A stretch of DNA of 64,000 nucleotides, from NCBI RefSeq assembly GCF_013409785.1, contig NZ_JACCBV010000001.1, positions 124,001 through 188,000 of the forward strand. Reading direction: 5' to 3'. Made by a program: the position numbers and the translations under genes. Origin of the DNA: Microbacterium immunditiarum. Its GTDB lineage: Bacteria > Actinomycetota > Actinomycetes > Actinomycetales > Microbacteriaceae. Positions 12,159 through 40,172 of this stretch are shown in pieces. Position 1 is the stretch's first letter. Each line of letters starts with the position of its first letter. Under the pieces are notes generated by a model. That model was not told the origin of the DNA, searched no databases, and worked only from the letters and a program-made list of their open reading frames with translations.

Positions 12159-15100
12159 TCACTGCAGGGAAGGACCCGTCGCCGAGCGTTGACGGCTCCC
12201 CACAGACTCCGGCGCAGCACGATCCACGCCGCGCGCGTGCCCTCGATCTCGCGGAACCCTGTCCCCGGCGTTCTGATGGCCTGCTGTCGCGTCGGCGAGC
12301 GCGTCGCGCAGTCGCTGTCCGTCGCGTCGTAGCGCCGTGAGCTCGTCCCACTGCTCGAGGGTGCGGCGGGGGGCGTGAGTGCGGGCGTCCAGGTCAGCGA
12401 GCCGCGCAGCCAGGGTCAGCGCTGTGGACGCCGCGCGGGCCAGCCAAGGTTCCTTCGTGCCAGGGTCCGTCTCTGCCAGGTGGGAGCGCTCGTTACCCTC
12501 GGGTTCGCGGGCGGCGCGGCCGAGCTCGGACGAGGCGGCGCGGACGCCGTCGCCGAAAGTGAGTTCCAGAACGCCGCGGGTCATCATCGCCGCGACCTGT
12601 GCGGTCGACTCGGCGTCGTCGCGGGCGATCGTGACGACCTCGTTGTGCACGCGCCCTCGTGTCATCCCGACATACAGGCCCGCCGCGTCCACGTCAGGGC
12701 CGACGATCGAGGCATGCGTGGTGTCCCCCTGGATGCCGTGCACCGTCGACGCGTACGAGAGGTGCACATCCTCGGCGCAGTACGCCCCTGACACGGTGCG
12801 GGTGTCGAGAGGGTCGGTGACGCTGGCCAGGTGGACTCCGGTGGCGGTGATGTCGGTGATCGTCCAGGTCGCGCGGTTGTCGACGCCGGTGTGACGGTCG
12901 TTGCGTCGGGTCTGCACGATGTCCCCGACCAGCAGGTGCTGCCCGTCGCGGCCCAGCACGACCCGGCGGGGATCGAGGTCGCCGTGGTCTATCCGTCGCT
13001 GCTGAATGGTCTCGTTGATCAGTTGCGCCTCGGCGTTGCTGCCCACGACCACCGCGACCCGCTGCCGCCGGGCTGCGAAGTGGAAGTACCGGTCCACGAT
13101 GTACGCGCGCGCCTCATCCGTGTGACCGGCGCGGTGGACCAGGCCACGGTCGGCGAGTTCGGCGGCCGCTGCGATCGAGTCGCTCATGCTGCGAGGATCA
13201 CGGAGTCGGAGGGTGAGTGCGGCGTAGCCGGGGTCGCGGAAGCGGTGCACGTCGATGAGTTCCACGGTGCGGTCGCTGTGGCGGTGCATGATGCTCATCG
13301 CTCCGGAGTGACCGACGGGGCGGGCCTGCAGCGGGTCGCCCACCATCGCGATCCCCGCACCGGTCTGCTCCGCGACGATCGCCAGCGCCCGCGCCGTGTC
13401 CAGGTCGACCATCCCAGCCTCATCGACCACTATTCGGTCTCCCGCCCGCAGCATGTATCGGCGTGGGCCGCCGAAGGTGGCGTCAGTGACCGGATCCCGC
13501 TCACCTCCCTGCAGTTGTCTCCACGCGGTGCGCCCCGTGGGGTCGGGTGCGTACCGCCAGCCATGGTCGACCAGCAGGGCATGCAAAGATCCAGCCTGAG
13601 TGCCGACCTCGCGGGCGGCGACGGCGGCCGCCTTCTTCGTCGGAGCGACGACGACCATCTGTCTTCCCTGCGCCGCCAACGCGCTACCGGCCGCGCGCAG
13701 GATCGTGGTCTTGCCCGTACCTGCAGGCCCAACGATCGTGACCAGCCGGTCCGTCCCGGCGATCGCCGCCGCGGCATCCCGCTGGCCGACGTCCAGCGCA
13801 TGGTCCGCCATCATGCGTGCCGCCGCCGGAGCGAGATCGTCACTGGCGAGGGGCGTTCCCGGCGTGCTCAGCGTGCGGAACCGTTCCGACAGTTCCCGCT
13901 TGACGGTGGCGGTGGGGACCGACATGCGGTGCTTGAGATGGGCAGGCACGCGGGACTCGCCGGGCAGCAGGTCGAGCGTCAGGGCGAGGCCGCGGGCGGT
14001 GACATCGTCGATCACCTCCGCCAGAACGGCACGGTCCGCGATCACACCGGTCGCAGCGACCGCGCGGGTGGCACCGGCCCGGACATCGATGACGCTGAAC
14101 CGTCCGCCGGTGGACGCGGCGCGCTGGTCGGCCTCGTTGACCGCGATGCCCGCCAGCAGGTTCCGATCCAGCCTCCCCACTCGAGGCGGCGGCGACGGTG
14201 CCATCGGCCTCGGTGGACCGAGCGTCGCCAGCTCGCCGCGGATCATCGCCGCCCAGTCCTCCTCCGCGAACGCGACGGGCTTGTCCGGCCGCGCATGCGC
14301 CCACGCCCACCGGTCGATCGCCCGCAACGCGACCGGCCCCGGTTCCTGGCCCCGATGCTCGGCACGCCACTGCGCCAGCTTGATAGCCCGATTCGCCTCG
14401 ATCTGGTTCGACCGGCGCGACAGCGGACGCACCATGTGCGCCAGCCCACCGATCTCGCCGTTCGCATCGATCGTGTAGCCGAATCGGGCCAGGGCCGCCC
14501 GCCACCTCGGATCGGTGCGGGCCAGCAGCTCACCCTCCGCGTTGACGAGCGTATGCAGCCTCATCGCCACCCGGGAGTCCACATTCGACCACCGGCCATC
14601 CGCGCCCTGCACCTTCACGCTCAACCACAAGTGCCGGTGAACGTGCGGGTCCAGCGCCCGAGACCGGCGGTGCCGGAGCTCGACGACCTCGATCCGCGAC
14701 AGCGACTCCCGAACCCGCCCGCCAGCCCCGCGGCGCGCATTCAACTCGCGCTGCCAGAGCAGCAGGATCCAATCCCGCAGCCGATCCTGCAACGCCTCGA
14801 ACTCGACCGCCAACTCGGGGTGCAGCATCGCCGCGATACTGAACGACTTCGGCGCGTTGATCGTCCCGTCCAGCACCAGATCCGTCTCCGGCGAGCGCAG
14901 GTCGCGTCCCCGCCGGGCCCCGGTCGTCGGTTCCGGCCCGTCCACCCATCGGGTCAGCTGAGACGGGTTCAACCGGTCACGAGCGATCACACCATCGACC
15001 ACGACGAACCGGTCGAGGGACCCTTCTGCATAGCCGGTCAGAGCGCTGACGCCAGCTGCCCGCGGGTGCGGCGCGTCACACGCGCCATCGAACGCATAAG

Positions 15101-15164
15101 CGACCGCTTGCCGCACACCCTGCGACCCCTGACCGCGCTTCCACCGCTCCAGTCCGCCACGCAT
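12159..15164 (-). CDS. MobF-type relaxase-helicase (TrwC/TraA-like)
   Basis: A 1001-residue protein that nicks at oriT and unwinds the transferred strand. The N-terminal relaxase has the three-histidine metal motif DPHVHRHLW (about residue 170), preceded by the family segment INAPKSFSIAAML. The C-terminal RecD-like helicase has Walker A GPAGTGKTT (~478) and Walker B VVDEAGMVD (~578), and a UvrD/RecD C-terminal motif SYASTVHGIQG. I chose the ATG at 15164, which follows a TATGCT -10-like hexamer by 6 bases and may be leaderless. An upstream in-frame start at 15293 would add 43 unconserved residues. Confidence 0.88.
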   Translation of the reverse strand: MRGGLERWKRGQGSQGVRQAVAYAFDGACDAPHPRAAGVSALTGYAEGSLDRFVVVDGVIARDRLNPSQLTRWVDGPEPTTGARRGRDLRSPETDLVLDGTINAPKSFSIAAMLHPELAVEFEALQDRLRDWILLLWQRELNARRGAGGRVRESLSRIEVVELRHRRSRALDPHVHRHLWLSVKVQGADGRWSNVDSRVAMRLHTLVNAEGELLARTDPRWRAALARFGYTIDANGEIGGLAHMVRPLSRRSNQIEANRAIKLAQWRAEHRGQEPGPVALRAIDRWAWAHARPDKPVAFAEEDWAAMIRGELATLGPPRPMAPSPPPRVGRLDRNLLAGIAVNEADQRAASTGGRFSVIDVRAGATRAVAATGVIADRAVLAEVIDDVTARGLALTLDLLPGESRVPAHLKHRMSVPTATVKRELSERFRTLSTPGTPLASDDLAPAAARMMADHALDVGQRDAAAAIAGTDRLVTIVGPAGTGKTTILRAAGSALAAQGRQMVVVAPTKKAAAVAAREVGTQAGSLHALLVDHGWRYAPDPTGRTAWRQLQGGERDPVTDATFGGPRRYMLRAGDRIVVDEAGMVDLDTARALAIVAEQTGAGIAMVGDPLQARPVGHSGAMSIMHRHSDRTVELIDVHRFRDPGYAALTLRLRDPRSMSDSIAAAAELADRGLVHRAGHTDEARAYIVDRYFHFAARRQRVAVVVGSNAEAQLINETIQQRRIDHGDLDPRRVVLGRDGQHLLVGDIVQTRRNDRHTGVDNRATWTITDITATGVHLASVTDPLDTRTVSGAYCAEDVHLSYASTVHGIQGDTTHASIVGPDVDAAGLYVGMTRGRVHNEVVTIARDDAESTAQVAAMMTRGVLELTFGDGVRAASSELGRAAREPEGNERSHLAETDPGTKEPWLARAASTALTLAARLADLDARTHAPRRTLEQWDELTALRRDGQRLRDALADATAGHQNAGDRVPRDRGHARGVDRAAPESVGSRQRSATGPSLQ

Positions 15165-15170
15165 ATGCGA

Positions 15171-15176
15171 AGCATA
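15171..15176 (-). promoter_or_regulatory. -10 element of a probable leaderless relaxase transcript
   Basis: On the minus strand TATGCT is followed by exactly six bases and then the relaxase ATG. No Shine-Dalgarno sequence is present. The spacing is that of leaderless promoters common in actinobacteria. Confidence 0.4.
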
Positions 15177-15188
15177 AGCAACTTTGCC

Positions 15189-15213
15189 GACCTGCGTCGT
15201 GGATACGCAAGTC
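15189..15213. other. candidate oriT inverted repeat
   Basis: The arms GAC-N-TGCGT and ACGCA-N-GTC flank a 7-base loop, about 25 bases upstream of the relaxase start, in a 248-bp gene-free interval. A second small hairpin (GCAC/GTGC) lies near 15267-15281. MobF oriT sites usually lie next to the relaxase gene and carry such repeats. The nick site cannot be read from sequence. Confidence 0.35.
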
Positions 15214-15412
15214 ACTCGGAACGAGCGCGCACGGACGCTACCGAAGTCGCCCGAACGCGCGGAGCGCACAGAAAGTGCCTGCGTGCATCCCACCAGGGTC
15301 GTCGTGGTTGCTCAAGCCGGCTACTGGCCGCCTGTGTGAATCGGAGGTGTCGGTTCCGGCCGCGGTAATCTTCGGCTATTCAGCTCGATCACGAGGTAGT
15401 AGGGGGCGTTCG

Positions 15413-17255: not shown

Positions 17256-18698
17256 TCAGACCGGCTTTGCCAGCAGCGGAACGTTGTCGCCCGCAGCGAA
17301 GCGACCGGGACCGCAGTGGAGGCATCCGGGTCGCCTCTTCGGTGTGTGCTCGACCACCTCATCGGTTCGTGGGAAGTAGGACGCCCAGTGGTCGTGGGGG
17401 ACGTCCTCGTCAACGAGCTCACCAACGGTCATGAGCCAGTCATCGACCGCTCGGGCGGCGGCGACCGCGTTGAGGGAAATGACGCTAGGGGCATGCACAT
17501 CGTCGTCGTCCACGTAGCGTTGACGACGACGCTGCTTCTCGCTGGTCGCCTCCTCCGTCAGGCGGCTCGCGGGGATGAGCCCGTTGCATTGGAGACATCC
17601 GCTGCCGGGGCTGCTCATTCGCGACACGGAGAAGATGTCGGCGAGCGTGCCGTCCACGATGGACACCTTCGATCCGACCTGCGTGTGCGGCACCAAGTAC
17701 TGGTGCGTGATCGAATTGACGAGACGACGTGCGAGCGCGGAGTCCGCCGCGAGGAAGATGTGATCGCAGTCGGTCAGCAGAGCGGCGACATCCGCGTCGA
17801 CGACAGACTGGGGGATGCTAGTGACGCGGGTGGTCGTGGATGCCTGGTGCGCGACTCGTGCGGCGATCTTCACCTTCGGTGTGGCGAGGCGTTCGCCGAG
17901 CTTCCGCATCCACCGGGGAGCACTGCCGCGGCGCAACCATCCCATCGCGTCGAGGCGACGGGACCCGACCACTCTGGGCAAGTTAGTGGGGTCGAGCCGA
18001 TCCGGGTCGATGAGGATGAGTTCGCCGACGCCGAGCCGGGCCAGGTACTCGACGATGAGCGAGCCGATGCCGCCCAGCCCGACCACGGCGACGCGGGAAC
18101 GAGCGAGGATCTGCTGTCCACGGTCGCCGAAGATGCGGGTCTGCCGGTCGTAGCTCGGGTCCGCAAGCGCCGCGGCGACGGGCTGCGGGGTGAGGGTGCG
18201 CTGAGGTCGCCCGACGACGCGGAGGTGGGCGATGCGGTGACGTTCACCGGTGTCGGACCAGATGTCGCCGGCGACGGCGTTCGCGGCGAAGACCAGGGCG
18301 CCCACGGGGACGCCGGCGTTGATATCGAGCAGGGCGGGGTACCCGCGTTCGTGCGAGGCGATGTCGGTGTCGGAGAAGTCGACGCTGGTGGAGCCGCCGT
18401 GATTGTGGATCGCAAGGTAGGCCAGCCCCTGCTCCGCGCAGACGTCGATGTTCTCGGCGACGAATGGGGCGGTGAGCTTGCGGTACCCGCGATCCCCGGG
18501 AATGTAGTCGACGCCATCTTCGGCGAGAACGACGTCGCGGACCAGCAGACGCGTGCCCCGTGGGCTGCGTGCGATACCGCAGCGCAGAACGGCGCCGTGC
18601 TCATCCTGGTCGCCGGGGAACAGATGGGCACGCAGCGTCGCCCACTGTTCCCCGGTCATCACAACCGACCACGGCTCGGTCACTGCTCGGCGAGCCAT
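17256..18698 (-). CDS. JAB-E1 fusion: ThiF-type ubiquitin-activating protein with N-terminal JAMM peptidase
   Basis: A 480-residue two-domain protein. Residues ~15-150 form a JAB/MPN domain with the metal motif HNH...SDTD (H-x-H and S-x2-D). Residues ~190-480 form a ThiF/E1 adenylation domain with GLGGIGSLIVEYLARLG and ILIDPDRLDPTNLPR. Two zinc Cys pairs (CLQC and, at the C-terminus, CLHC) follow. In bacterial ubiquitin-like operons E1 adenylates the Ubl C-terminus and JAB removes or processes Ubls. I see no conserved catalytic cysteine beyond the zinc pairs; three isolated cysteines remain candidates. It overlaps the E2-like gene by 19 bases. A GTG at 18683 is an alternative start. Confidence 0.85.
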   Translation of the reverse strand: MARRAVTEPWSVVMTGEQWATLRAHLFPGDQDEHGAVLRCGIARSPRGTRLLVRDVVLAEDGVDYIPGDRGYRKLTAPFVAENIDVCAEQGLAYLAIHNHGGSTSVDFSDTDIASHERGYPALLDINAGVPVGALVFAANAVAGDIWSDTGERHRIAHLRVVGRPQRTLTPQPVAAALADPSYDRQTRIFGDRGQQILARSRVAVVGLGGIGSLIVEYLARLGVGELILIDPDRLDPTNLPRVVGSRRLDAMGWLRRGSAPRWMRKLGERLATPKVKIAARVAHQASTTTRVTSIPQSVVDADVAALLTDCDHIFLAADSALARRLVNSITHQYLVPHTQVGSKVSIVDGTLADIFSVSRMSSPGSGCLQCNGLIPASRLTEEATSEKQRRRQRYVDDDDVHAPSVISLNAVAAARAVDDWLMTVGELVDEDVPHDHWASYFPRTDEVVEHTPKRRPGCLHCGPGRFAAGDNVPLLAKPV

Positions 18699-19081
18699 CG
18701 CAGCACCTTGAGCACCTTGGTGGCGGCGGTGTCAATGGTGGGGTCCAGCCGGTTGCTGCGCCGCGACAGCTGGGTGCCGGCTTGCGCGTGCGGGCCCCAC
18801 GTGACCGATGCGAACCCTTCACCGTGGCCGGCGCCGTCCTTGCGGTCGAGGTCGGGGCGCACGAACAGCGGATACACATCGGCTTCGGGGTAGGGAAAGG
18901 TGATCTGGAACGCGATCCACGACGTCGACTGCGTGTACGCCGGTCCGAGGGGGACGGGATCGATCAGGACCCACCCCCCGCCGTCGCCGTCGCTTTCGAA
19001 GGTGACGGTCGCCTCGGGGAACGTTTCGCGCAGCTCGTCGATCGCGTCGCTGATCGCCGCGGTGATCGTGGTGGTACTCAC
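18680..19081 (-). CDS. prokaryotic E2/UBC-like protein without cysteine
   Basis: A 133-residue protein between the Ubl and E1 genes. The segment FQITFPYPEADVYPLFVRPD (residues ~58-77) has the beta-strand/'YPxxxP' pattern of E2 folds, and a Trp-Gly-Pro-His segment follows near residue 98. There is not a single cysteine in the translated protein, so it cannot form the classical E2~Ubl thioester. It is either a non-catalytic scaffold or belongs to an E2-like family using other chemistry. It starts with GTG overlapping the multi-Ubl stop (GTGA). The call depends strongly on operon context. Confidence 0.72.
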   Translation of the reverse strand: MSTTTITAAISDAIDELRETFPEATVTFESDGDGGGWVLIDPVPLGPAYTQSTSWIAFQITFPYPEADVYPLFVRPDLDRKDGAGHGEGFASVTWGPHAQAGTQLSRRSNRLDPTIDTAATKVLKVLRWLAEQ

Positions 19082-19722
19082 GAGTTGTCGTCTCCGTCGA
19101 GGGCGCGGAACTCGTCGTGCGGACGAACACGGATGTGTTCATCGTCATCGACGGGGGTAAAGGTCTTGCCGTCCTTGCGGGAGAGCAGGAAGTCGGGCTT
19201 GATCGGCACGCCCTGCGCGATCGCGGCGTCCTTGATCGACCGGCCGGTCTGGCGGACGCCGTGGAGGGTGACCTGGCGGCGGTTCACGGTGACGGTGATC
19301 TCGTGCTGCGGCAGCGGCTTGGTGAAGAACCGGTCGCCGTCGGAGATGGGAACGAGCTCGCCGATGCCGATGGGGTCATCGAGCTCGTCGACGATGTCCT
19401 TCCAGATGCCGTGGTCCTCGGGCACGGGCGGGGTGGGAAGCTGCCGCAGCTGCGTCTCGGAGAGCACCGCGCTGCGCACCACATAGGGCGTCTTGTCGAT
19501 GAAGATCGTCCGGGGCCGGTCCGTGAAGAAGCGCTGACCTTCCTCGATCGCAACGGTCTCGGTGACCGGGATGGGGTGGTCCTGCGCGTCGGGAACGTCG
19601 ATCCACAGGTTCTCGGCCGGGGGCTGGACCAGGTCGCGCAGCTGCCTGCCGGTGAGGCGCCGCTGCGCGACGGTGACCGGTTCGCTGTCGATGTAGATGG
19701 TGATGCTGTCTCGGGGTGCCAC
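19078..19722 (-). CDS. multi-ubiquitin-like protein, three tandem beta-grasp domains
   Basis: A 214-residue protein made of three Ubl-like repeats: ~5-67, ~69-139 and ~140-205. Repeats 1 and 2 begin with hydrophobic strands (SITIYID, RTIFID) and end in matching EGQRFFT and DGDRFFT segments. Repeat 3 begins HEITVTV and ends with a degenerate HDEFRAL. This is the architecture of the Multi_ubiq family. The C-terminus is GDDNS, not Gly-Gly. GTG start with SD GAGAGGAG. It follows a dedicated promoter-like motif 55 bp upstream, so the Ubl-E2-E1 trio may be expressed separately from the upstream genes. Confidence 0.85.
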   Translation of the reverse strand: MAPRDSITIYIDSEPVTVAQRRLTGRQLRDLVQPPAENLWIDVPDAQDHPIPVTETVAIEEGQRFFTDRPRTIFIDKTPYVVRSAVLSETQLRQLPTPPVPEDHGIWKDIVDELDDPIGIGELVPISDGDRFFTKPLPQHEITVTVNRRQVTLHGVRQTGRSIKDAAIAQGVPIKPDFLLSRKDGKTFTPVDDDEHIRVRPHDEFRALDGDDNS

Positions 19723-19776
19723 TGTGGGCTCCTCTCTGTCTCTTGGCGCGGTGGGTGCTGTTTCCCACTCGGAGGC

Positions 19777-19805
19777 TAGAGACGGGACAACTTCCGAATC
19801 GTCCA
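19777..19805 (-). promoter_or_regulatory. bipartite promoter-like motif, copy A
   Basis: On the minus strand: TGGACGAT, 8 variable bases, then TGTCCCGTCTCTA. The same 8+13 bases with the same spacing recur at 21785-21813. This copy stands 55 bp before the multi-Ubl start. The layout (GGAC-type -35 and a distinct -10) is that of a dedicated sigma-factor or activator site. The sequence further downstream also shares GACAGAGAGGA before the start codon with copy B. Confidence 0.65.
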
Positions 19806-19811
19806 GACGGG

Positions 19812-20846
19812 TCAGCCCGCGCAGTCATCACAGGTGTCCGCGCCGGGTGCGAATTGGCTGCGGTGCTTCTCGAGGAAGCAGACGGCGCAGGTGATCTGAG
19901 CGGTCGCGGTGCATCCGCAGTGCCCGGCGGGGCATCGAGGCTGACGGCATCGGGGGCAGATCCAGCCGACGATGAAGCTGCGTGCGCACGTTTCGCACTC
20001 TTCGAAACGATCCGTCGTGTGGTGCGCGGTGCCGTCGCGCGGCGGGGAGAACGACAGCCAGGAGGCGCCGTACTCCACCATCACCACGAAGAGCCGGTCG
20101 CCTGCCCATCCGACTTGCCCGTAGAGCTGGTCGGAGGAGTGCCCGGTCCGGTACCAGACTCGCGCGTCGTCGCGGGTGATGATTCTGGTGGGGTCTGTCT
20201 GCTCGAGGGCGGCGTGCACGAGCGGGTTGGAGCTCTGGTCACTTCCACGAGCAGGCGGGAAGATACCGCCTCGCGCTGCGGCGAATGTCACGACGCCGGC
20301 CGGATCAAGCACGGCAATGACACCCGGTGACTGCAGCCGCCCGGCAAGGCGCACGCTGATCGCTGCGCGGGAGGCGTTCGATGCGTCGAACAGATCGATG
20401 GCGCCTTGCGCGGTCGGGCCGCGGGCGGCGGTGTGTGCGTCGACAAGGTCGTCAGGGAGCAATACTCGCGCCGCGAACGCGTCACAGCAGGCGTCCTCAA
20501 ACAGTTCGGGTTGCCGGTGGTCCACGACCCGGGTTCCCAACGCGATGTCGGTCTTCTGCAGGTGGTGGCCGAGCTCGTGAAGCACGGTGAACTGCTGTCG
20601 GCGCGGCGACATGGATTCGGTGACCACAAGCGTGGGTGGGTCCCACCGGTAGCCGCCCGTGACGGAGCAGCCGAGATCCGAGTCATGGGGGACGAACTCG
20701 GGCACCCGCAAGACCGAGATGTCGTCGCGATCCTGCAGCGCCGTGAACGCGTCGAGGGTGAGGTCTTCGATCGCGCCGCCGCGTCCCGCCCAGGCGGCGA
20801 TCATGTCGTCGACCTGGGCAGGTGTCGCGTCGAAGATCTGCGGCAC
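19812..20846 (-). CDS. ImmA/IrrE-type metallopeptidase with cysteine-rich C-terminus
   Basis: A 344-residue protein. The HELGHH zinc motif (~residue 90), the downstream LFEDACCDAFAARVLLP segment and the phase-variable helix around it mark the IrrE/ImmA family, which cleaves repressor-type regulators. The last ~65 residues are packed with paired cysteines (CETC, CPRC, GHCGC, CAVC, CDDC), a binuclear zinc, treble-clef or RING-like arrangement. GTG start one base after the preceding stop. In this Ubl operon the tail might recruit Ubl or E2 proteins (inference). Its natural target is probably one of the two adjacent HTH-type proteins. Confidence 0.78.
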   Translation of the reverse strand: MPQIFDATPAQVDDMIAAWAGRGGAIEDLTLDAFTALQDRDDISVLRVPEFVPHDSDLGCSVTGGYRWDPPTLVVTESMSPRRQQFTVLHELGHHLQKTDIALGTRVVDHRQPELFEDACCDAFAARVLLPDDLVDAHTAARGPTAQGAIDLFDASNASRAAISVRLAGRLQSPGVIAVLDPAGVVTFAAARGGIFPPARGSDQSSNPLVHAALEQTDPTRIITRDDARVWYRTGHSSDQLYGQVGWAGDRLFVVMVEYGASWLSFSPPRDGTAHHTTDRFEECETCARSFIVGWICPRCRQPRCPAGHCGCTATAQITCAVCFLEKHRSQFAPGADTCDDCAG

Positions 20847-20847
20847 G

Positions 20848-21759
20848 CTACTGTTTGCCCTCGCGGGCAAGAACAGCGGCGATCCGCTGCCGCCAAAGAT
20901 CCCGCCCGGTGCCCGACTCGCGTGCGGCGAGCTGATACGCCTCGTATCCGAGGCGGGTGCGGGCGTGCGTCTCGTCGTTGTCCGTCGCACGTTCCCGGAT
21001 GATCGCACGCCAGCGTGGCTCGTGCAGCTCCCGGAGGAGGTCCCAGGGCAAAGGAGACAGCGCGGCCAAGATCATTTCGGCGGGGACATTTGCCGCCGAC
21101 GCCAACTGTTCGGCTTCCTCGATTGAGAGAGGTTCTTTGCCGAGCCGTATCGCCATCGCACGCGGCTGCGGTACGCGAAGGGTGTCGATGATCTGCTGCA
21201 GGGGGATCTCCAGCGGGCGGGGACGTGGGCTTGCGCTTGAGGCGGTAACGGTCGGGGCATGCTGGAGAAACTCGATGGCGTCAAACATTTCGTCGATAGC
21301 CAGGGTGGCGCCGGAGCCGGGGGGCGGGTCGGACTCACGGGTATGCACGCCGGAAAGACGCGGTGGTGTGGTTGGTGCGTCGCGGACGGCGCGGAGCACG
21401 GCGGGGGCCGCCACCGCGATGACCTGATCGAGGGCGGCGTAGGGGATCCATTCGGCCTGTCCGGGCCAGACGGCCAGGCCGCCGTGGAGGGGGCTCGCTT
21501 CCGGCTCGATGATGACGGCGCGGGCATCGCCCACGCCCGGCTCGAGGCTCACAGGGAAGATGCGGGCCCTGGCCGCATCCTCGTCGACGGACTCGATGAG
21601 GACGACCGCGTCGGCGTCTTGCCAGGATGCTTGCCGCAGTTGTCCGGCGCTGACCTTGTCGGCGGGTGGGGTGCTGCGAAGTGTCGCGCCGGGGCGCTTG
21701 GGTCCGATGGGGAATTGTGCGGAGATGGCGAGCCAGCGCTCGGCGGCGTCAGATGGCAC
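20848..21759 (-). CDS. unknown HTH-like protein preceding metallopeptidase
   Basis: A 303-residue protein I do not recognise. A Pro/Ala-rich middle region links an N-terminal domain (~1-130) to a C-terminal helical part. There the segment PLSIEEAEQLASAANVPAEM (~220-240) resembles a Cro/XRE-type helix-turn-helix. ImmA-type peptidases are usually paired with such a regulator, so it is a likely substrate or repressor. I chose the GTG at 21759, which has SD GAGAGGA. The 26 bases before it carry copy B of the promoter motif. A GTG at 21783 is less likely because it lies next to that motif. Confidence 0.6.
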   Translation of the reverse strand: MPSDAAERWLAISAQFPIGPKRPGATLRSTPPADKVSAGQLRQASWQDADAVVLIESVDEDAARARIFPVSLEPGVGDARAVIIEPEASPLHGGLAVWPGQAEWIPYAALDQVIAVAAPAVLRAVRDAPTTPPRLSGVHTRESDPPPGSGATLAIDEMFDAIEFLQHAPTVTASSASPRPRPLEIPLQQIIDTLRVPQPRAMAIRLGKEPLSIEEAEQLASAANVPAEMILAALSPLPWDLLRELHEPRWRAIIRERATDNDETHARTRLGYEAYQLAARESGTGRDLWRQRIAAVLAREGKQ

Positions 21760-22720
21760 GGGAGTCCTCTCTGTCCTCTTCACGTAGAGACGGGACAGGC
21801 GAAGGATCGTCCAAGACCAAGCTGACCAGAGCGACCATCACCTCTCGTCCCTGTTTATCGTCACCGGCGAGCTCGACCAGGCGTGCCCGGAGCCGGCCGA
21901 TCATGGTGTACGCGCTGCTGCGCCCGACACCCAGCGCCCCCGCCAGTGCAACCGCATCATCGGCGTGCCGGATGACAACGAGCTCCCGCTCGCTGAGCAG
22001 CGGCATCAGGCTCTCGGCTGTGCGCTCCTGGCGTCGCTTGTCCGCCGTCGTGCCGGTCGTGTCAGCTGCGGGTGTAACGTCCTCGATGTATTCCCAGTCC
22101 GCATCCACGGTCGCCGATGCCGCGTCGCCTGGCTCCAGCGTCGAGGGGAAGCGCTCCGCGCAGATCCTGGTGATGTCGCTGATGTGCAGCCGGCCGGCCT
22201 CATCCAGAAGTCGCCGCAGGAGTTCCTCCAGCTCACCGCGCCGCCCGAGCTGGATCCCGTCGGCCGTGGGGATCGTTTCCACGAAAGTGCTCGACGCGAG
22301 CTGCCGTAGCCGCGACTCTGTGACGCCTCGATCGGCATCGCCACCATCCGCCAGTCGCCAATAGTGGTCGATGGCGGAGCGTTCGAACAGCGGCGAGCGC
22401 TCGAGGCGCTTCTCCAAGCGGTTTCGGAGCGCCCCGAACGGGAGGGTCCGTGCCCGGTCGACAAGCCAGTGCACTGCCCACTTTCGTGTGAGACGGCGGG
22501 CGGCGTCGTCATCGGGCACCTCGATGACCGCGTTGGCGTAGCCGGAGCCTTTGTCGAGAAAGAACTCGTTGACGAGATCTGCGACCTCGTCTGTTGCGGC
22601 GAGACCCGGGAACCGTGGAAGCTCGTAAGCGAAGACATCGGTCATCATGTCGAGCGCGGCCGGCCCCAGGCTGCCCCGGGACAGTGCCTCGTCTTTGATG
22701 TGCGTGGTAGCTGCGTGCAC
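21749..22720 (-). CDS. putative regulator with C-terminal sigma-region-4-like HTH
   Basis: A 323-residue protein beginning at a GTG that shares one base with the protease stop (TAGTG). Residues ~245-290, around LLSERELVVIRHADD and GVGRSSAYTMIGRLR, form an HTH resembling sigma-70 region 4 or LuxR/GerE-like modules. The N-terminal part is helical, without a recognisable domain. An extended acidic tail follows. It is a natural candidate for the factor reading the duplicated motif found inside its own 3' end and before the multi-Ubl gene (inference). Confidence 0.55.
   Translation of the reverse strand: MHAATTHIKDEALSRGSLGPAALDMMTDVFAYELPRFPGLAATDEVADLVNEFFLDKGSGYANAVIEVPDDDAARRLTRKWAVHWLVDRARTLPFGALRNRLEKRLERSPLFERSAIDHYWRLADGGDADRGVTESRLRQLASSTFVETIPTADGIQLGRRGELEELLRRLLDEAGRLHISDITRICAERFPSTLEPGDAASATVDADWEYIEDVTPAADTTGTTADKRRQERTAESLMPLLSERELVVIRHADDAVALAGALGVGRSSAYTMIGRLRARLVELAGDDKQGREVMVALVSLVLDDPSPVPSLREEDREDSRAI
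21785..21813 (-). promoter_or_regulatory. bipartite promoter-like motif, copy B
   Basis: The same motif as at 19777-19805: on the minus strand TGGACGAT-N8-TGTCCCGTCTCTA. It is embedded in the 3' end of the HTH/sigma-like gene and lies 26 bp before the following gene's GTG. All 21 fixed positions are identical while the eight spacer bases differ, which argues for selection on the motif and not recent duplication of the whole segment. Confidence 0.65.
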
Positions 22721-25098
22721 TAATACCAACTGTTCTCGCGACCGCCGCGCAGCCGCACGCGGCCGGCGACGCGTTGCACCGGCCGGAGCGCGGCGAACTG
22801 TGCGGCGACCTCGTCGTAGAGCACCCCACCGTTAGCGGGGTCGGTGATCGTGACCAGCAGCGCGAACGGCACCTCGGTGGGTGAGCCGTCCAGGGCTCCG
22901 GCACGACGGGCGACGTAACGGATCTCCAGTCTGGGGTCGTTGACCTCGCCTGCGGCGAAGCTCACCCGGTGATGCCGTAGGGTCTCCCACTTCCCGGAGT
23001 CGCGGAGATCGGCCTCGTTCAGGCTTGCGGAGCCGGACAGCGTCTTCGTCACGGGTTCTTGACCGCTGGTCCACCCGGACGTGAGGAGGTTGCGTGCTTC
23101 CACCGAGGTCAGGTCTGCGATCCGCGCCGGCTCGGATGAGCCTTTCGGCGGGGAGAACCGAAACATGTTGCGGTTGGGGCGCAGCGTGAGCTCCAGGGAC
23201 GCCGAGGTGTACTCGGTGGGCTGTGTCGGCTCGACAGGTGAGGCGTAGGCGAGGGTCACGGACATCTTGGCCGAGCCGCCGAATGTTCGCGGCCATGGCA
23301 GTTGGTAGCCGAGGATGTCGCCGCGGCTGATCTGGTCCACGTACAGTACGTGCAGCAGGTCGGGCGTGCATTCCATGGCGTCGGCGAAGGTCAACGGAAG
23401 ACGACCGAAGCCGAGTTCGTCTCGCTTTGCGATAAACGCACGGTGTCGCTCTGCGAAGTGCACAGCGAACGCGCGCAGCACACTGCTGTTCACCCGCGGC
23501 AGCCGTGTGGTCAGGTCGGCGAGGGCATGGGTGACCAGGGGTGCAGAGAAGCTGGTGCCTGAGGCTTCCAAGAATGTGCCGTCGGCGCGTAGTACGTCGA
23601 ACATGCGCTGGTCGACACCGCCGAACTGGACGCCCAGGGGTTGCGTGCGGCGCCCGGCGCGCCCGGGACCCATCGAGGAGTAGGGGGCGCGGCTCCACGG
23701 TCGATGCGGCGCGGGGATGTCGCACGATCCGACCGACACGGCATTGGCCATGTCGGCGGGAACCTCTACTCGGTGGAGCCCGGTCTGGCGGTCTTGGTCG
23801 CCGTGGTTTCCGGCGGCAACCACGAAGACGACGTCTCGTTCCCAGGCGAGCTGGTCCAGTTCGGCCGTCCACCGGTTGGGTTCCATGTCGTCCTCGACGG
23901 CGAGCGCGGGCCCAAGGCTCAGATTGACCAGCTTGTGACGGTCGTCGGCGAGGGTGTCCTTGATCTGGTCGAGGACCCAGTAGCCGTCCAAGTCGCCCGG
24001 ATCGAACGGAGGCGGCATGACACGGAAGCTTTCCACCGGCAGCGGCGGTTGCGTCGCCTGATGTCCCGCTGCGAGCAGCCCATACATGGTGGCCCCGGTG
24101 ACGCCGGTGCCGTGATCGAGTTCGTCGGACTCGGCCGGTTCAGGGGTGAGATCGATGGCAGCGCTTGGGAACAGACCAGGGTGGCTCGGGTCGTGTACAC
24201 CACCGTCAAAGACGGCGACCGTGGTGACATCAGCGATCGGTCGCGCGGTGGCGGGAGGGAGAACCCGGCTGGCGCTGCGCAGCCCGAACCTGGGTCGGGG
24301 TCGGATGGCCGGCATCGGTCGAAGCACGCGGAGCGGATTGAACCGGGCGAGTTCGGGGGCACGATCAGGTGCGACACGCACCGGCACGAAAGTGAGGCCG
24401 CCGACGCGGCGAAGGTACTCGTGATGGACAGCCCCACCATTCGCGGCCACCAGCGCCGTCCAGCGGCTTAGCGCGTCATCGTCGATCGCCACCGGTTCTC
24501 CGGACCGGACAGTCTGCGGGTGCAGGACGGCCTCCCAGAGGGTGTCTTCCGCACCATCCAAGGCTTCCGCGACCTCGGGCACTCGCAGCACCGTGCCGAC
24601 CTTGGGTGGTGCGAGTTCCTCAAGTCGACGGATCTGTGCGAAGGCCTGCTGGGCGCTGCGGCCGGCACCGTGCGTGTCGATCAGGTCCTCGAGGTCTTCG
24701 AGGGCGGATTCGTCGACGGCGAGGATGAGACGGCGCGTACCGGTGTGTTGCGTCTTCGTGGCGGTGCGCAGTTCGCCTGTATCGGCGCGTGAGCCGACGG
24801 GAACTGCGCCGACGAAGGCGAGCAGGACGTCGGGGAAGTAGGTGGGGGCGATGTAGTTGGGAAGCAGCTTCGCTTCGACGTAGACGCGGTCGGCCGCTCG
24901 CAGCGTGTCCGGGAGCGCGGCGACCGCCGATCGGGTGGATCGGATCTGTGGCAGCAGCCACTCTCGTGCCTCGTCCGGGGTGTACGGCTCGAATTTCGGT
25001 CCGCCGCCGGTGGGCGCGAACTCGACGTCCATGCGCAATGCCTCGCCGTTGACCATCAGGCGCCGGGTGGTGCCGGCAGTGGCACTGACGTCGGTCAC
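22720..25098 (-). CDS. subtilisin-like S8 serine protease
   Basis: A 792-residue protease with no signal peptide, so probably cytoplasmic. The catalytic triad is visible: Asp in VAVFDGGVHD (~residue 290), His in DHGTGVTGAT (~residue 325) and Ser in ASGTSFSAPLV (~residue 515). A ~280-residue N-terminal region and a ~270-residue C-terminal beta-rich region flank the catalytic core. GTG start overlaps the AAA ATPase stop (GTGA). AAA ATPase plus S8 protease gene pairs recur in bacteria; the ATPase may unfold or gate substrates. Here the pair heads an operon with Ubl genes. Confidence 0.85.
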   Translation of the reverse strand: MTDVSATAGTTRRLMVNGEALRMDVEFAPTGGGPKFEPYTPDEAREWLLPQIRSTRSAVAALPDTLRAADRVYVEAKLLPNYIAPTYFPDVLLAFVGAVPVGSRADTGELRTATKTQHTGTRRLILAVDESALEDLEDLIDTHGAGRSAQQAFAQIRRLEELAPPKVGTVLRVPEVAEALDGAEDTLWEAVLHPQTVRSGEPVAIDDDALSRWTALVAANGGAVHHEYLRRVGGLTFVPVRVAPDRAPELARFNPLRVLRPMPAIRPRPRFGLRSASRVLPPATARPIADVTTVAVFDGGVHDPSHPGLFPSAAIDLTPEPAESDELDHGTGVTGATMYGLLAAGHQATQPPLPVESFRVMPPPFDPGDLDGYWVLDQIKDTLADDRHKLVNLSLGPALAVEDDMEPNRWTAELDQLAWERDVVFVVAAGNHGDQDRQTGLHRVEVPADMANAVSVGSCDIPAPHRPWSRAPYSSMGPGRAGRRTQPLGVQFGGVDQRMFDVLRADGTFLEASGTSFSAPLVTHALADLTTRLPRVNSSVLRAFAVHFAERHRAFIAKRDELGFGRLPLTFADAMECTPDLLHVLYVDQISRGDILGYQLPWPRTFGGSAKMSVTLAYASPVEPTQPTEYTSASLELTLRPNRNMFRFSPPKGSSEPARIADLTSVEARNLLTSGWTSGQEPVTKTLSGSASLNEADLRDSGKWETLRHHRVSFAAGEVNDPRLEIRYVARRAGALDGSPTEVPFALLVTITDPANGGVLYDEVAAQFAALRPVQRVAGRVRLRGGRENSWY

Positions 25099-26222
25099 TT
25101 CTGGCCTCCTGCCCGTCTGATCCCGCTGGCGACTGTGGGGTGGCTCACGCCCGCGAGGGCGGCGATGCGCCGGTTGGACATTTCGAGGGTCTGGTGCGCG
25201 TGGCGCCACAGCTGGTCCCGTAGCTCGCTCGTCGGGAAGCGCGCGATCAGCTCAGAGACGAGCGCCTCCTCAAGAGCTAGCTGGTGCAGGATCGCCTTCC
25301 GCCGGCAAATCTCCCAGAAGCGCATCAGGACGGAGTGGCTGGCACCCGCCCAGAGCGCCGCGGTCAGCTCGACGAGCTGTGCAGACGCCTCTCCATGGTT
25401 CGCGTTGCTCAACAGCATCCGCCTCTGCGTCTGGTCGGGGAGAGGGAACTCGACGATCCGATCGAACCGCCGGTCGATCGCCTCATCCAACAGTTGGGGG
25501 TGATTGGTGGCAGCCACTAAGAGGCTGCTGTCGGGCCATCTGTCAAGCTCGACGAGGATCACGTTCACGACCCGCTTGAGCTCGCCGATGTCCGAGTCGT
25601 CGTCGCGACGCTTGGCAACCGCGTCGAACTCGTCCAGGAGTAGCACGCACGGGCCGGACTTCGCGTATTCCAGGACCGACTTGATGTTTCGACCGGAGCT
25701 GCCCAGATAGCTGGAGACCACTGAGGCAAGGTCCAAAGCGACCAGTGGTACACCCAGCCGCTGCGCCAGCCAGCGGGTGGCGAGCGTTTTGCCTACTCCG
25801 GGCGGACCAGAAAACAGCACCGTTCGACTCAGCGAAACACCGGCTCTTGCGAGCTCATCCGCGCGGTTGCGTTCCTCCACGATCTCATTCAGTTCGATCG
25901 CGACCCGCTGATCGACAACGAGCTCATCCGCGATCGGGAGCGCATTCACATCGACGAGCGGGTGCGTTCCGTCACCGTCGGCTGGGATCGCTCCGCTATC
26001 GAACCGCAGCCCCGCGGACGGCTTCGACGCCGAGAGCGCCTCGTGCACGGCGACCCGAAACGCCCCTGGGTCGCCGACGGTCGGCGGCACCGCACGAACA
26101 AGACGGCCGGCAAGCTGACGCACACCCGCTGCATGGCCGCGGGCGCCCACTCGAACCAAGTCAACGACGACTCGCTCCAGTCCATCAGTCGACTGGTAAA
26201 TTGCTGGGTTCCGGTCCGCCAT
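25095..26222 (-). CDS. AAA+ ATPase, first gene of Ubl-associated operon
   Basis: A 375-residue AAA+ ATPase. Walker A GPPGVGKTLA is at about residue 145, Walker B VLLLDEFDAVAKRR at ~205, and sensor/arginine finger residues lie in ATNHPQ and DRRFDR. A C-terminal helix-turn-helix-like segment (NRRIAALAGVSHPTVASGIR) is unusual for an AAA protein and could bind DNA. The ATG at 26222 is preceded on the minus strand by TACGGT and 7 bases, so the transcript may be leaderless. A 6-bp inverted repeat (26228-26242) overlaps that position and could be an operator. The longer frame to 26474 is unconserved. Confidence 0.83.
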   Translation of the reverse strand: MADRNPAIYQSTDGLERVVVDLVRVGARGHAAGVRQLAGRLVRAVPPTVGDPGAFRVAVHEALSASKPSAGLRFDSGAIPADGDGTHPLVDVNALPIADELVVDQRVAIELNEIVEERNRADELARAGVSLSRTVLFSGPPGVGKTLATRWLAQRLGVPLVALDLASVVSSYLGSSGRNIKSVLEYAKSGPCVLLLDEFDAVAKRRDDDSDIGELKRVVNVILVELDRWPDSSLLVAATNHPQLLDEAIDRRFDRIVEFPLPDQTQRRMLLSNANHGEASAQLVELTAALWAGASHSVLMRFWEICRRKAILHQLALEEALVSELIARFPTSELRDQLWRHAHQTLEMSNRRIAALAGVSHPTVASGIRRAGGQK

Positions 26223-30200: not shown

Positions 30201-30472
30201 GATGCACCGGATGACAAAGTTGCCCACTTGTGGAGGCGGTCGATGAGGTCGGGGCGGAACCCGCACCAGTGGTGGTCAGGTTCCCCGTCAACGATCACGA
30301 CGGGCGCCTCGGAGTACCCGAGATCGACCGTGAGGTACTCGTGGGCGGGAGCGTTCGAGTCCTCGGAGAGGTCGACGACCCTGTAGGGGATGCCGGTTTC
30401 GTCGAGCTTGCGGAGCGTGAGCCGGCAGCGCACGCAGCCCGGTCCGGTGGAGTACACGGTCACCGTGACCAT
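30197..30472 (-). CDS. glutaredoxin/NrdH-like protein
   Basis: A 91-residue thioredoxin-fold protein. The N-terminal VTVYSTGPGCVRCRLT carries the redox CxxC (CVRC). SEAPVVIVDGE supplies the cis-Pro region, and the tail WCGFRPDLIDRL matches NrdH-type glutaredoxins. It would act as an electron donor for a reductase. Its ATG lies inside the last codons of the upstream helicase gene. Similar small redoxin genes occur in actinobacterial mobile elements. Confidence 0.82.
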   Translation of the reverse strand: MVTVTVYSTGPGCVRCRLTLRKLDETGIPYRVVDLSEDSNAPAHEYLTVDLGYSEAPVVIVDGEPDHHWCGFRPDLIDRLHKWATLSSGAS

Positions 30473-36053: not shown

Positions 36054-36157
36054 CGCCGTCTCCTTCGTCTGTGCCGTCGAGGTCGCCCCACAGGTCGAGC
36101 TCTGGCTGTTCCCATCCCTCGCCGCGGCGTCTGCGCGCCACCATGAGGCCGGCCCGC

Positions 36158-36391
36158 TCACCAGTCGTCGTCGCTGGTACTCTGCCGGACGGTGGACTCG
36201 ATCCACGCCTCCACCTCGTCCAGCGCATACAGCACCGACCGGCCGGCCTTGCGGAACTTCGGACCCTTGCCCTCGTACCGCCACATCGCCAACCGGGCGG
36301 TCGTGATGCCCGGAAGCATCCGCGCCACCTGCTCCGGACTCAGGTAGGTGTGGCTCAACTCGTTGGCCCGCGATGTCGTCGGTGTCGCCAT
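36158..36391 (-). CDS. excisionase-like HTH protein
   Basis: A 77-residue protein with a MerR/AlpA-type HTH: the YLSPEQVARMLPG turn (residues ~16-28), followed by TTARLAMWRYEGKGPKFRKAG and ALDEVEAWI. This is the pattern of recombination directionality factors (Xis) and of HTH_17 proteins. It lies 700 bases from the integrase and is transcribed divergently, which fits a role in ICE excision. It could also act as a local transcription regulator. Confidence 0.75.
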   Translation of the reverse strand: MATPTTSRANELSHTYLSPEQVARMLPGITTARLAMWRYEGKGPKFRKAGRSVLYALDEVEAWIESTVRQSTSDDDW

Positions 36392-36519: not shown

Positions 36520-37098
36520 GTGAGAACCCTCGACGGCAAGCCAGTGACGTGGCGGCATGCCACCGTGCCGATCGGGGCCGCGCTGCAGATCGTCCCGGCA
36601 TTCGTCGCGACCGCCACCGAGCAGGACATCGAGGTGGACGCCACCGTCGAGGCCCACTACCGTCCCGAGGCGGGGCGGTATCTGGTCAGCGCGGTCACTG
36701 CCCGCGCAGTGAACCCCGATGGCAACGTCACCTCGAACGTGCTGCGCACCGTCCGCGTCGGCGAAGTGCTCACCGCCGCGGTGCCGCGCTGCATCACGGT
36801 CGAGCACGAGTTCTTCGCGCACCGAGCCACGGTGGACCAGCTCACCACCGCCGAAGGCCGGCTCATCCCCGAAGACTTCGCCGCACAAGCCCGCAAGGCC
36901 GGACCCAAGCCCGACACCCTCGAACTCGTGCAGCTGATCTACAGCGTCGCCGCCCTCGCCGGCGTCATGCCCATCAAGGCAGTCCAGGACGAACTCGGAA
37001 TCACCAACCGCACTGCCGTGTACTGGACCACCAGAGCTCGCGCCGCGGGCCTGCTCGACGGCATCACGTTCCCCGTCGGCCGAAAGGCCGATGGGTAG
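36520..37098 (+). CDS. integrase-linked protein with C-terminal HTH
   Basis: A 192-residue protein. Residues ~1-110 form a beta-rich domain without recognised family. The C-terminal ~60 residues contain an HTH-like segment (AVQDELGITNRTAVYWTTRARAAGLLDG). I chose the GTG at 36520, placed 8 bases after GGAGGTGA; the GTG at 36508 overlaps that SD. It overlaps the integrase gene by 8 bases, so the two are co-expressed. Genes of this type commonly precede integrases in actinobacterial ICEs, perhaps as regulators of integration. Confidence 0.65.
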   Translation: MRTLDGKPVTWRHATVPIGAALQIVPAFVATATEQDIEVDATVEAHYRPEAGRYLVSAVTARAVNPDGNVTSNVLRTVRVGEVLTAAVPRCITVEHEFFAHRATVDQLTTAEGRLIPEDFAAQARKAGPKPDTLELVQLIYSVAALAGVMPIKAVQDELGITNRTAVYWTTRARAAGLLDGITFPVGRKADG

Positions 37099-38317
37099 CA
37101 TCAAGCCCTACAAGACGAAGAAGGGCCGCCGCTACCTGGTCCGGTATCGCAAGCCCGACAACAGCCAGACCGACAAGCGCGGCTTCACAACCCACAAGGC
37201 CGCAGAGCAGTTCCTCGCTCGCGTCGAAGTCGCCAAGTCCCGCAACGAGTACATCGACCCGAAGGATGCCCGCGCCACTATCGAGGAGCTCGGCCCGGCG
37301 TGGCTGCTCAACCGCACGCGCGTGGTCAAGCCCTCCTATGCACGGACGTTGCAGTCCGCGTGGGAGGTGCATGTCCAGCCGAAGTGGGGAGCACGGCGGA
37401 TCGCGACGATTCTGCACTCCGAGGCACAGGACTGGGTCTCCGAGCTGAGCACACGCCGGTCGGCGACGACCGTCGCCCGCGCGTATGGCATCCTCGCCGG
37501 CATCCTGGACACCGCGGTGAAAGACCGACGGCTCTCCTCCAACCCGGTGCGCGGGATCAAGATGCCCCGCAAGAAGAAGAAGCCGCACGCCTACCTCACC
37601 CACACCCAGGTCGACATCCTCGCTGCGACGTCCCTGTACCCGACACTGGTCTACTTCCTCGCCTACACCGGACTGCGGTGGGGCGAGGCGACCGGGATAC
37701 GAGTGAAATACGTCGACTTCACCCGGCGGCGTGTACGGATCGAAGAGAACGCCGTCGACGTCGGCGGGAAGATAATCGTCGGCACCCCGAAAGACCACGA
37801 GAAGCGATCCGTCCCGTTCCCCCGATTCCTCGAACGGGGCATCCGCGACTGCGTGGCGGACAAGGGCGACGAGGGTCTGCTATTCGGCGACGGCGAGGAG
37901 CACGTGCGGCAGCCGTCGTCACAGGACGGATGGTTCGTCGCCGCCGTCAAACGCGCCCGGAAGATCGACCCGTCGTTCAAGAACGTCACCGCGCACGATC
38001 TGCGGCACACCGCGGCAAGCCTCGCGATCAGCGCCGGCGCGAACGTTAAGGCGGTCCAGCACATGCTCGGGCACGCCAGTGCTGCCATGACCTTAGACAC
38101 CTATAGCGACCTGTTCGACGACGACCTCGATGCCGTCGCCGAAGCGCTCGACCGCGCCCACGCCGGCATCAGCGGCATCCGGCGGCCGAGGGCGCGGGCG
38201 GTGGAGGCTAGGACGAAGCGCCGTGGCTCGCTGTTCAGCGGCCCCGGCGGTGAACGCGACGCTGCTGCACCGCTGTCGGGGACAACGCCCACGTCCTCTC
38301 GGTCGCTGGAACTGTGA
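37091..38317 (+). CDS. int: tyrosine recombinase, ICE integrase
   Basis: A 408-residue site-specific recombinase. An N-terminal arm-binding AP2-like region (KGRRYLVRYRKPD) and a core-binding SAM-like domain (~60-160) precede the catalytic domain. Catalytic residues are visible: Arg in YTGLRWGEA (~195), His/Arg in TAHDLRHTAASL (~300), His in MLGHASAAMT and the Tyr nucleophile in TLDTYSDLF (~337). A ~60-residue basic/disordered tail follows. It is oriented toward the tRNA-Ser about 1.8 kb away, the probable integration target. The 3' end overlaps a convergent gene. Confidence 0.92.
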   Translation: MGSIKPYKTKKGRRYLVRYRKPDNSQTDKRGFTTHKAAEQFLARVEVAKSRNEYIDPKDARATIEELGPAWLLNRTRVVKPSYARTLQSAWEVHVQPKWGARRIATILHSEAQDWVSELSTRRSATTVARAYGILAGILDTAVKDRRLSSNPVRGIKMPRKKKKPHAYLTHTQVDILAATSLYPTLVYFLAYTGLRWGEATGIRVKYVDFTRRRVRIEENAVDVGGKIIVGTPKDHEKRSVPFPRFLERGIRDCVADKGDEGLLFGDGEEHVRQPSSQDGWFVAAVKRARKIDPSFKNVTAHDLRHTAASLAISAGANVKAVQHMLGHASAAMTLDTYSDLFDDDLDAVAEALDRAHAGISGIRRPRARAVEARTKRRGSLFSGPGGERDAAAPLSGTTPTSSRSLEL

Positions 38318-40081: not shown

Positions 40082-40084
40082 TGG

Positions 40085-40172
40085 CGGTGACGGTGGGATT
40101 TGAACCCACGGTAGGGGGTTACCCTACACAACTTTTCGAGAGTTGCACCTTCGGCCGCTCGGACACGTCACC
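40085..40172 (-). tRNA. tRNA-Ser (anticodon CGA)
   Basis: On the minus strand the acceptor stem GGTGACG pairs with CGTCACC. The D-arm has GTGTCCGAGCGGCC, the anticodon arm CAACT-CTCGAAA-AGTTG has CGA at positions 34-36, a long variable arm is present (class II) and the T-arm is GTGGGTTCAAATCCCAC. CCA (40082-40084) is encoded. The 3' end faces the ICE, so this gene is the probable integration target. Confidence 0.93.

Follow-up and report, generated by a model that had tools for sequence, protein, structure and literature searches.

A recurrent, probable three-gene controller and a repeated DNA element in a poly-ubiquitin-like operon with an IetAS-like pair from Microbacterium immunditiarum

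Bacterial operons encoding chains of ubiquitin-like (Ubl) domains were described in 2006, and the literature we found gives them no tested function. In the accessible sections of that work (Iyer, Burroughs, Aravind 2006, PMC1779556), the 6e poly-Ubl operons are described as highly mobile and combine a protein of two to three Ubl domains with a Cys-less E2/RWD-like protein and a JAB-E1 fusion. The same mobility and the same three kinds of gene are seen in the window studied here, a stretch of 64,000 nucleotides from Microbacterium immunditiarum (Microbacteriaceae; RefSeq assembly GCF_013409785.1, contig NZ_JACCBV010000001.1, positions 124001-188000), whose genome is one contig of 3.9 Mb with a single triple-Ubl gene. 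In those sections, the 6e row includes a metal-binding protein Y and names no IetAS, sigma-like, MazF-like or ImmA genes (PMC1779556). Neither the window nor its near relatives carry a c4-type gene in the Y/DUF6527 place after JAB-E1, and we therefore call the window operon a 6e-like variant. Judged from their predicted products, its eight genes form three modules: a controller (HTH1-HTH2-ImmA), a Ubl-E2-JAB/E1 module, and a pair resembling the anti-phage ATPase and S8 peptidase IetA-IetS. The locus is thus a composite of known kinds of module and a controller that we have not found described. Of these, the controller with its DNA elements is the strongest part and the one most open to test.

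All eight open reading frames (ORFs) lie on the minus strand in one direction, mostly overlapping, as a preliminary description of the sequence had it. From the AAA ATPase gene to the JAB-E1 gene, the intergenic gaps are -115, -10, -35, -161, +89, -4 and -19 bases with the longest starts, the 89 bases between ImmA and Ubl being the only positive gap. The expected motifs are present in the ATPase, subtilase, E1 and M78 peptidase. HTH1 and HTH2 (named for helix-turn-helix, HTH) gave no Pfam family match, and PADLOC returned none for these two or for the Ubl and E2-like proteins.

A scan of species genomes with the triple-Ubl protein gave 12 loci (loci are numbered L and genomes G; throughout, the duplicates L060=L002, L065=L004 and L080=L012 are counted once). 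By tblastn with the eight proteins, six of the 12 have the full set (L002, L004, L005, L007, L009, L010), and L073 in genome G038 also carries all eight, a co-occurrence above chance. L003 has seven of the eight, ImmA being absent; the Microbacterium loci L008 and L011 have all but AAA and S8; L006 is truncated by a contig end; and the distant L012 and L013 (Ubl 44-45%) showed no AAA/S8, E2 or JAB half. Across the ten closest loci (L002-L011), HTH2 is present in all ten (cut short in L006) and ImmA in nine, while HTH1 occurs in all nine testable loci and AAA with S8 in seven of nine. More widely, the Multi_ubiq family PF14452 was found in 13/396 genomes of the phylum and 22/398 of the family (our own genome in both), giving 35 loci in 34 genomes, with our own locus counted once and two loci in G427.

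The first two controller genes had initially both been called HTH-like, a label that holds for part of the second; 22729-21749 is better described as sigma-like, and 21783-20848 as a MazF fold with an HTH-like portion. HTH1 (21749..22729; 326 amino acids) is tentatively assigned as a divergent sigma-70-like protein. It has no significant sigma match, its structure-based match list is rich in sigma factors, and its position is held by Pfam sigma-70 genes in L081 (region 2, with 32.5 bits against a cut-off of 24) and L094 (region 4, with 34.1 bits against 24.1). HTH2 (20848..21783, likely start ~21759; 303-311 amino acids) has a well-supported MazF fold spanning model residues ~42-140 and an HTH-like helical part, with a HigA/Cro-like HTH match at E 0.009. 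A role for HTH2 as an active MazF toxin was weighed: the fold agrees with it, but the 'RP' loop usual in MazF could not be seen by eye. ImmA (19812..21008, likely start ~20846) is an M78 metallopeptidase (PF06114, 4.6e-10; PADLOC capP, 4.6e-13) with HELGHH at residue 144 and a zinc-finger-like tail holding 11 Cys in residues 338-396, with conserved Cys columns.

The three genes recur together. Profiles recognised the trio at five loci (G000, G038, G508, G757, G606) and HTH2 with ImmA alone at two (G188, G691), and G670 has a sigma-70/225-amino-acid/ImmA version. Among the 396 phylum genomes, HTH2 gave six further weak, short matches (E 3e-6 to 2e-4). In L012, L013 and L088-L090, HTH1 was assigned by position, length and 19-24% identity; the class-A profile misses it in L012 and L013 at 1e-4, L088-L090 lying outside that set. 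This recurrence makes HTH1-HTH2-ImmA a well-supported candidate switch unit. That it is a protease-operated switch of some kind is probable; that it works through a sigma factor is a proposal we rate at somewhat under even.

Variants of this arrangement are found elsewhere. On a Mesorhizobium huakuii plasmid (L094:5513-8866), an M78 domain stands before a UvrD helicase and a PD-(D/E)XK nuclease; a sigma-70 gene and a 184-amino-acid gene precede this M78 gene and a poly-Ubl gene follows it. This may possibly be a DNA-sensing form of the switch. By annotation, L111, L112 and L114 have a similar gene order. In L109 and L134, a RES/Xre pair occupies the divergent slot held elsewhere at poly-Ubl loci by XRE/ImmA. 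An HTH2 relative in L069 (11252-12265, minus strand) has no Pfam match, and by eye its N-terminus resembles a zinc anti-sigma motif, H-x3-C-x2-C.

We also found relatives of the controller beside other immune genes. HTH2 relatives with 27-28% identity lie on plasmids of Streptomyces longwoodensis and Sinomonas in the order HTH1-like, HTH2, ImmA, cyclase, with no Ubl gene seen there. In PADLOC, these cyclases reach 5.6e-174 and 8.6e-167 against cyclase models, with Pfam SMODS below its cut-off; they are cyclases of the cyclic oligonucleotide-based antiphage signaling system (CBASS). In Streptomyces cathayae, a plasmid-borne cassette is followed by DUF3892, ThiF and DUF6527 genes. L137 (G074) has HTH2 and ImmA-type genes, two small ORFs and then a 1011-amino-acid protein, with no HTH1 or Ubl detected by profiles; it may be a third system type governed by the switch.

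The operon contains two copies of a DNA element, TGGAC-N11-TGTCCCGTCT, placed as might be expected of a switch. One (19780..19805, minus strand) lies in the 89-base gap between ImmA and Ubl, at 57 bases upstream of the start codon of Ubl, and the other (21788..21813, minus strand) lies in the 3' end of HTH1, directly before HTH2. These are the only exact copies in the 3.9-Mb genome, the next match having two mismatches; a reversed control pattern has two genome matches at up to two mismatches. The element or a close variant precedes Ubl in 10 of 11 close loci, the exception being L006. A matrix for this first type, built from nine before-Ubl sites and scanned over 20 loci (L073 lying outside the scan), found both sites in 12 of them (the window, L002-L005, L007-L011, L086 and L091). 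None of the 12 before-HTH2 sites had contributed to the matrix, and L086 and L091 were wholly outside it, yet 11 of these sites outscore all 1,652,072 background positions; that of L010 has p 1.2e-6. An additional site in L008, 581 bases upstream of Ubl, scores 16.3 bits (p 1.2e-6), and no element was found in L069 or L081. Seven of eight loci have no element upstream of AAA, and L009 has a single loose match there. The stretches upstream of AAA and of Ubl have nine 8-mers in common, against 4.3 in shuffles.

Other controllers have other elements. A second type, AGTTACRTCGTCYGTYCC, read by eye from sites before driven operons, precedes the driven operon at zero to one mismatches in L012, L013, L089 and the CBASS locus L090. 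With two to three mismatches it recurs in L012, L013 and L089, where it lies 51-72 bases ahead of HTH2, and in L090, where it falls within the 3' end of HTH1, 205 bases before the annotated HTH2 start; elsewhere there are three matches at up to three mismatches in 1.96 million strand-bases. A third type, related to the first, is common to the CBASS locus L088 and to L006 and absent from the 134 other loci examined. In L088, a single copy was found 116 bases upstream of the cyclase; L006 carries two, within a duplicated segment, at 431 and 670 bases upstream of Ubl. The Ubl genes of L006 are near those of the window, yet its ImmA is closer to that of L088 (53%) than to that of L002 (45%), and it shares its element with L088. 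The element thus appears to follow the controller rather than the genes that are controlled.

Taken together, these features would fit an inducible composite defence operon of three modules with the element before HTH2 and Ubl, a reading that we adopt tentatively. HTH1 would be a dedicated sigma factor, kept inactive by the MazF-fold HTH2. Infection or DNA damage would activate the ImmA-type protease, by analogy with CapP, and ImmA would cleave HTH2; the element would then fire, raising the amounts of HTH2-ImmA and Ubl-E2-JAB-E1. Since no element stands before them, the IetAS-like pair and HTH1 would be made beforehand. The E1 would activate the Ubl chain, which ends in Ser, with no thioester relay from E1 to E2; the Cys-free E2 fold would serve for binding or as an adaptor, and JAB would be the eraser. 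Ubl, once attached to infection-related proteins or bound by them, would guide or license the AAA-subtilase pair. We infer the sigma step and the Ubl-IetAS link.

Alternatively, HTH2 may be a DNA-binding repressor of the element and HTH1 an accessory DNA-binding protein, with ImmA cleaving HTH2 to derepress the operon in the manner of CapP/CapH and no sigma factor involved. We regard this as somewhat unlikely. The HigA/Cro-like match in HTH2, the capP match of ImmA and the lack of a significant sigma match for HTH1 all speak for it, and in the accessible part of one report CapW or CapH+CapP adjoin 219/544 Bub operons (PMC13373217). The first-type elements contain a GGAC-N12-GTCC dyad, which allows an operator, while the third type retains GGAC-N16-CGTC without the dyad. 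The GGAC-N16-CGTC spacing fits the usual shape of extracytoplasmic function (ECF) sigma promoters. Against the repressor reading, besides this third type, HTH1 is as regular as HTH2 in the nearest loci, its structural matches are rich in sigma factors, and Pfam sigma-70 genes take its place in L081 and L094.

The candidate effector of the sigma-switch reading is the pair at the head of the operon. The AAA ATPase (25095..26222, minus strand; 375 amino acids) has Walker A at residues 139-146 and Walker B at 194-200 and matches the AAA family in Pfam at 1.3e-31 and IetA in PADLOC at 1.5e-75. The S8 subtilase (22720..25209, minus strand; longest ORF 829 amino acids) has Asp/His/Asn/Ser motifs and matches PF00082 at 9.1e-24 and PADLOC IetS at 1.2e-33; relatives of 791-794 amino acids place its likely start at ~25098. 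Both score well under the cut-offs of the NCBIfam models (IteA, 235 bits against 510; IteS, 86 against 900), and so we name the pair IetAS-like.

Two lines of evidence bear on whether this pair belongs with Ubl. Window-type S8 was found in three of the 398 family genomes, each time within this operon, in a survey at E <= 1e-30 that scored two candidates per genome and missed distant IetS. In another phylum, six plasmid IetS proteins, including that of Bradyrhizobium L110, are at least 55% identical to the L110 protein, and five of the six adjoin poly-Ubl, all on alphaproteobacterial plasmids. In L108 and L110, the pair lies downstream of poly-Ubl in the same direction, and in L115, L120 and L121, it lies tail to tail with poly-Ubl; the latter three are closely related (88-89% in IetA), so the five represent two lineages. 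The proteins tested from L110, L108 and L115 match IetA or IetS models. These neighbours would favour a tag-then-degrade arrangement, and on gene neighbourhoods a Ubl-IetAS link is plausible. As an effector coupled to Ubl, the pair is a possibility that we put a little below even chances.

The pair could instead be stacked cargo of an integrative and conjugative element (ICE), with the IetAS-like genes, the ImmA regulator and poly-Ubl merely neighbours and IetAS acting independently of Ubl. IetAS has PADLOC and NCBIfam models of its own as a pair, the sixth plasmid IetS, from Paracoccus (L116), has no Ubl seen beside it, and none was seen on three plasmids with more distant IetS that we viewed (L117-L119). 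Window-type AAA+S8 is present at just four of the 35 Multi_ubiq loci (G000, G038, G508, G757), some of which end at contig edges, and McrBC heads the L012 operon. We nevertheless consider this unlikely, given that AAA+S8 heads the operon in seven of nine testable close loci, that window-type S8 is confined to it in the family survey, and that IetAS-like pairs adjoin poly-Ubl in a second phylum in two other layouts. The preliminary description had proposed one system of eight genes. This stands for the close loci, where the unit recurs, and gives way to a divisible assembly beyond them, as AAA+S8 is infrequent, McrBC is substituted in L012, and relatives of the cassette precede CBASS cyclases.

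An obligate association of AAA/S8 with poly-Ubl was rejected, as L008 and L011 lack them and L012 has McrBC. At this Rathayibacter locus (L012:3063-6961), a McrBC pair heads the poly-Ubl operon in place of AAA+S8. A deaminase-domain gene lies ~500 bases upstream in L011, and L089 has an HNH-like gene that falls below the Pfam cut-off. A DUF4238 gene adjoins the window operon (15275-16489), and DUF4238 genes also occur near the IetAS-like pairs of L118 and L119.

At 23 of the 35 loci, an M78 gene (PF06114) stands no more than 5 kb from Ubl, against 0.27 expected from 99 M78 matches in ~128 Mb of the 34 genomes with relatedness ignored. A report of 2016 had already noted this: in its accessible text, 70% of multiubiquitin proteins have as neighbours loci containing a COG2856/DUF955 component, which were interpreted as toxin-antitoxin (PMC4963859). 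On that model, which was applied to Synechocystis, the MazF-like protein and ImmA would stabilise a multiubiquitin cassette on mobile DNA, and the MazF fold of HTH2 agrees with it. We think this quite improbable for the window. There are three genes and not two, the conserved elements precede both HTH2 and the driven operon, be it Ubl or cyclase, which is the placing that a switch would call for, and related cassettes stand before CBASS cyclases.

In the Ubl module, the triple-Ubl protein (19078..19722, minus strand; PF14452, 1.4e-15) ends in DGDDNS; two of its stretches pass Multi_ubiq alone, and the third repeat was read by eye. The E2/RWD-fold-like protein (18680..19081, minus strand; 133 amino acids) matches Prok-E2_E (PF14462) at 4.9e-4, its 20.3 bits lying below the curated cut-off of 25, and 14 aligned relatives have no invariant column. 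Neither protein contains a Cys, so that a classical E1-E2 relay is unlikely. The JAB-E1 fusion (17256..18698, minus strand; PF00899, 1.9e-29) has two CxxC pairs; its JAB half matches nothing in Pfam at E <= 0.1 and by eye shows a JAMM-like pattern (D32-E-H-G, H98-N-H, F108-S-D-T-D). An alignment of 15 E1s keeps the P-loop glycines, Asn239 and Arg242 in every row and has no Cys common to all; Cys311 is kept in 11 of 12 JAB-fused E1s, which leaves room for an E1 thioester. A search with the triple-Ubl protein gave 94 clusters, of which 34 were aligned, and all 34 rows end in Ser, as do 20 of 26 further Ubl proteins, the remainder ending in Gly, Lys, Gln, Ala or Arg (DUF3892 left out). A terminal Ser (DDNS, TDKS, GSS) thus replaces Gly-Gly in most of the poly-Ubl proteins compared. 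A classical cascade, in which JAB matures Ubl, E1 and E2 thioesters pass it to lysines and IetAS degrades the tagged proteins, matches the gene set and could draw on Cys311 for its E1 thioester, but we reject it as very improbable given the Cys-free Ubl and E2, the Ser end in place of Gly-Gly, the absence of a Cys invariant over 15 E1s, and the naming of the 6e-type E2 as inactive in the accessible sections of the 2006 work (PMC1779556).

The carriage on an ICE that had been proposed for the operon is supported. The window holds a TrwC-type relaxase-helicase (12159..15293, minus strand; PF08751, 6.6e-31), a tyrosine integrase (37091..38317, plus strand; PF00589, 4e-18) and a tRNA-Ser(CGA) (40082..40172, minus strand) with a 26-bp attachment repeat (~40082-40107). 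This repeat is found at genome positions 98264-98289 and, at the tRNA end, 164082-164107; together with these genes, it delimits an element of ~65.8 kb, of which the window covers the right 40 kb. Two candidate transfer ORFs have no Pfam match. A 25-mer of the tRNA-Ser end (window 40083-40107) has six exact copies (98265, 164083, 3841570, 3849702, 3884258, 3901349), and the four at 3.84-3.90 Mb suggest that about five integrated elements may stand in tandem across the sequence origin. The same element also encodes a 1922-amino-acid protein with SNF2/ResIII helicase and methyltransferase domains (window 30460-36228).

In the literature covered, mostly without subscription papers, we found no system with this eight-gene set, in keeping with the preliminary description, and no account of the controller trio, its element, or IetAS beside poly-Ubl. 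What we found no description of is the Calp-like make-up of the controller, the element, the CBASS arrangements and the alphaproteobacterial IetAS-like/poly-Ubl neighbours in two layouts; M78 genes beside multiubiquitin genes are already known from 2016, as the accessible text records (PMC4963859). Our fullest proposal, held with more doubt than the three-module reading itself, is that HTH1-HTH2-ImmA is a further family of immune controller: a Calp-like relay of sigma factor, MazF-like anti-sigma and M78 protease, independent of clustered regularly interspaced short palindromic repeats (CRISPR), that would serve at least two unrelated immune systems, poly-Ubl and CBASS, by way of promoter elements of its own and here turn on Ubl marking free of E2 chemistry to direct an IetAS-like protease. 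With a proposed inducible switch, a promoter-like element that could drive a reporter and a candidate effector in the IetAS-like pair, the function of poly-Ubl becomes testable. We know of no trigger for IetAS; if the proposal is true, IetAS would gain a possible specificity factor, and sigma/anti-sigma/protease relays would be a general way to arm bacterial immunity beyond CRISPR.

Among known systems, CalpL-CalpT-CalpS is the one that the controller recalls in its make-up, and CalpT is a homologue of MazF. In the accessible parts of the reports on this type III CRISPR set (PMC11417357, PMC12751052), a sigma factor, an inhibitor and a protease occur together, as they would in the window, where the sigma assignment is the tentative member. 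The window differs in having an M78 in place of a SAVED-Lon protease and no cyclic-nucleotide sensor seen, and the driven operons are poly-Ubl or CBASS. CapH+CapP, called 'controllers of associated/adjacent pathways' in the accessible part of PMC13373217, likewise pair an HTH protein with an M78-type protease beside diverse immune operons; the window has three genes, a sigma-like protein, a MazF fold and a Cys-rich tail, with the controller co-directional inside the operon and two copies of the element. The Synechocystis pSYSX cassette also has multiubiquitin, E2 and E1 genes with a DUF955 (M78) neighbour, read as toxin-antitoxin in the accessible text (PMC4963859), whereas the window has a three-gene co-directional controller and the IetAS-like pair. 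Bil, Bub and type II CBASS share the Ubl-E1-E2-JAB logic, and the window E1 matches PADLOC E1-E2 models; BilB has a catalytic Cys, as the accessible text states (PMC11354881), and the window E2 has none. IetAS itself is matched by the adjacent AAA and S8 genes through their PADLOC hits, and the window pair departs from it in scoring under the NCBIfam cut-offs and in being joined to a poly-Ubl operon.

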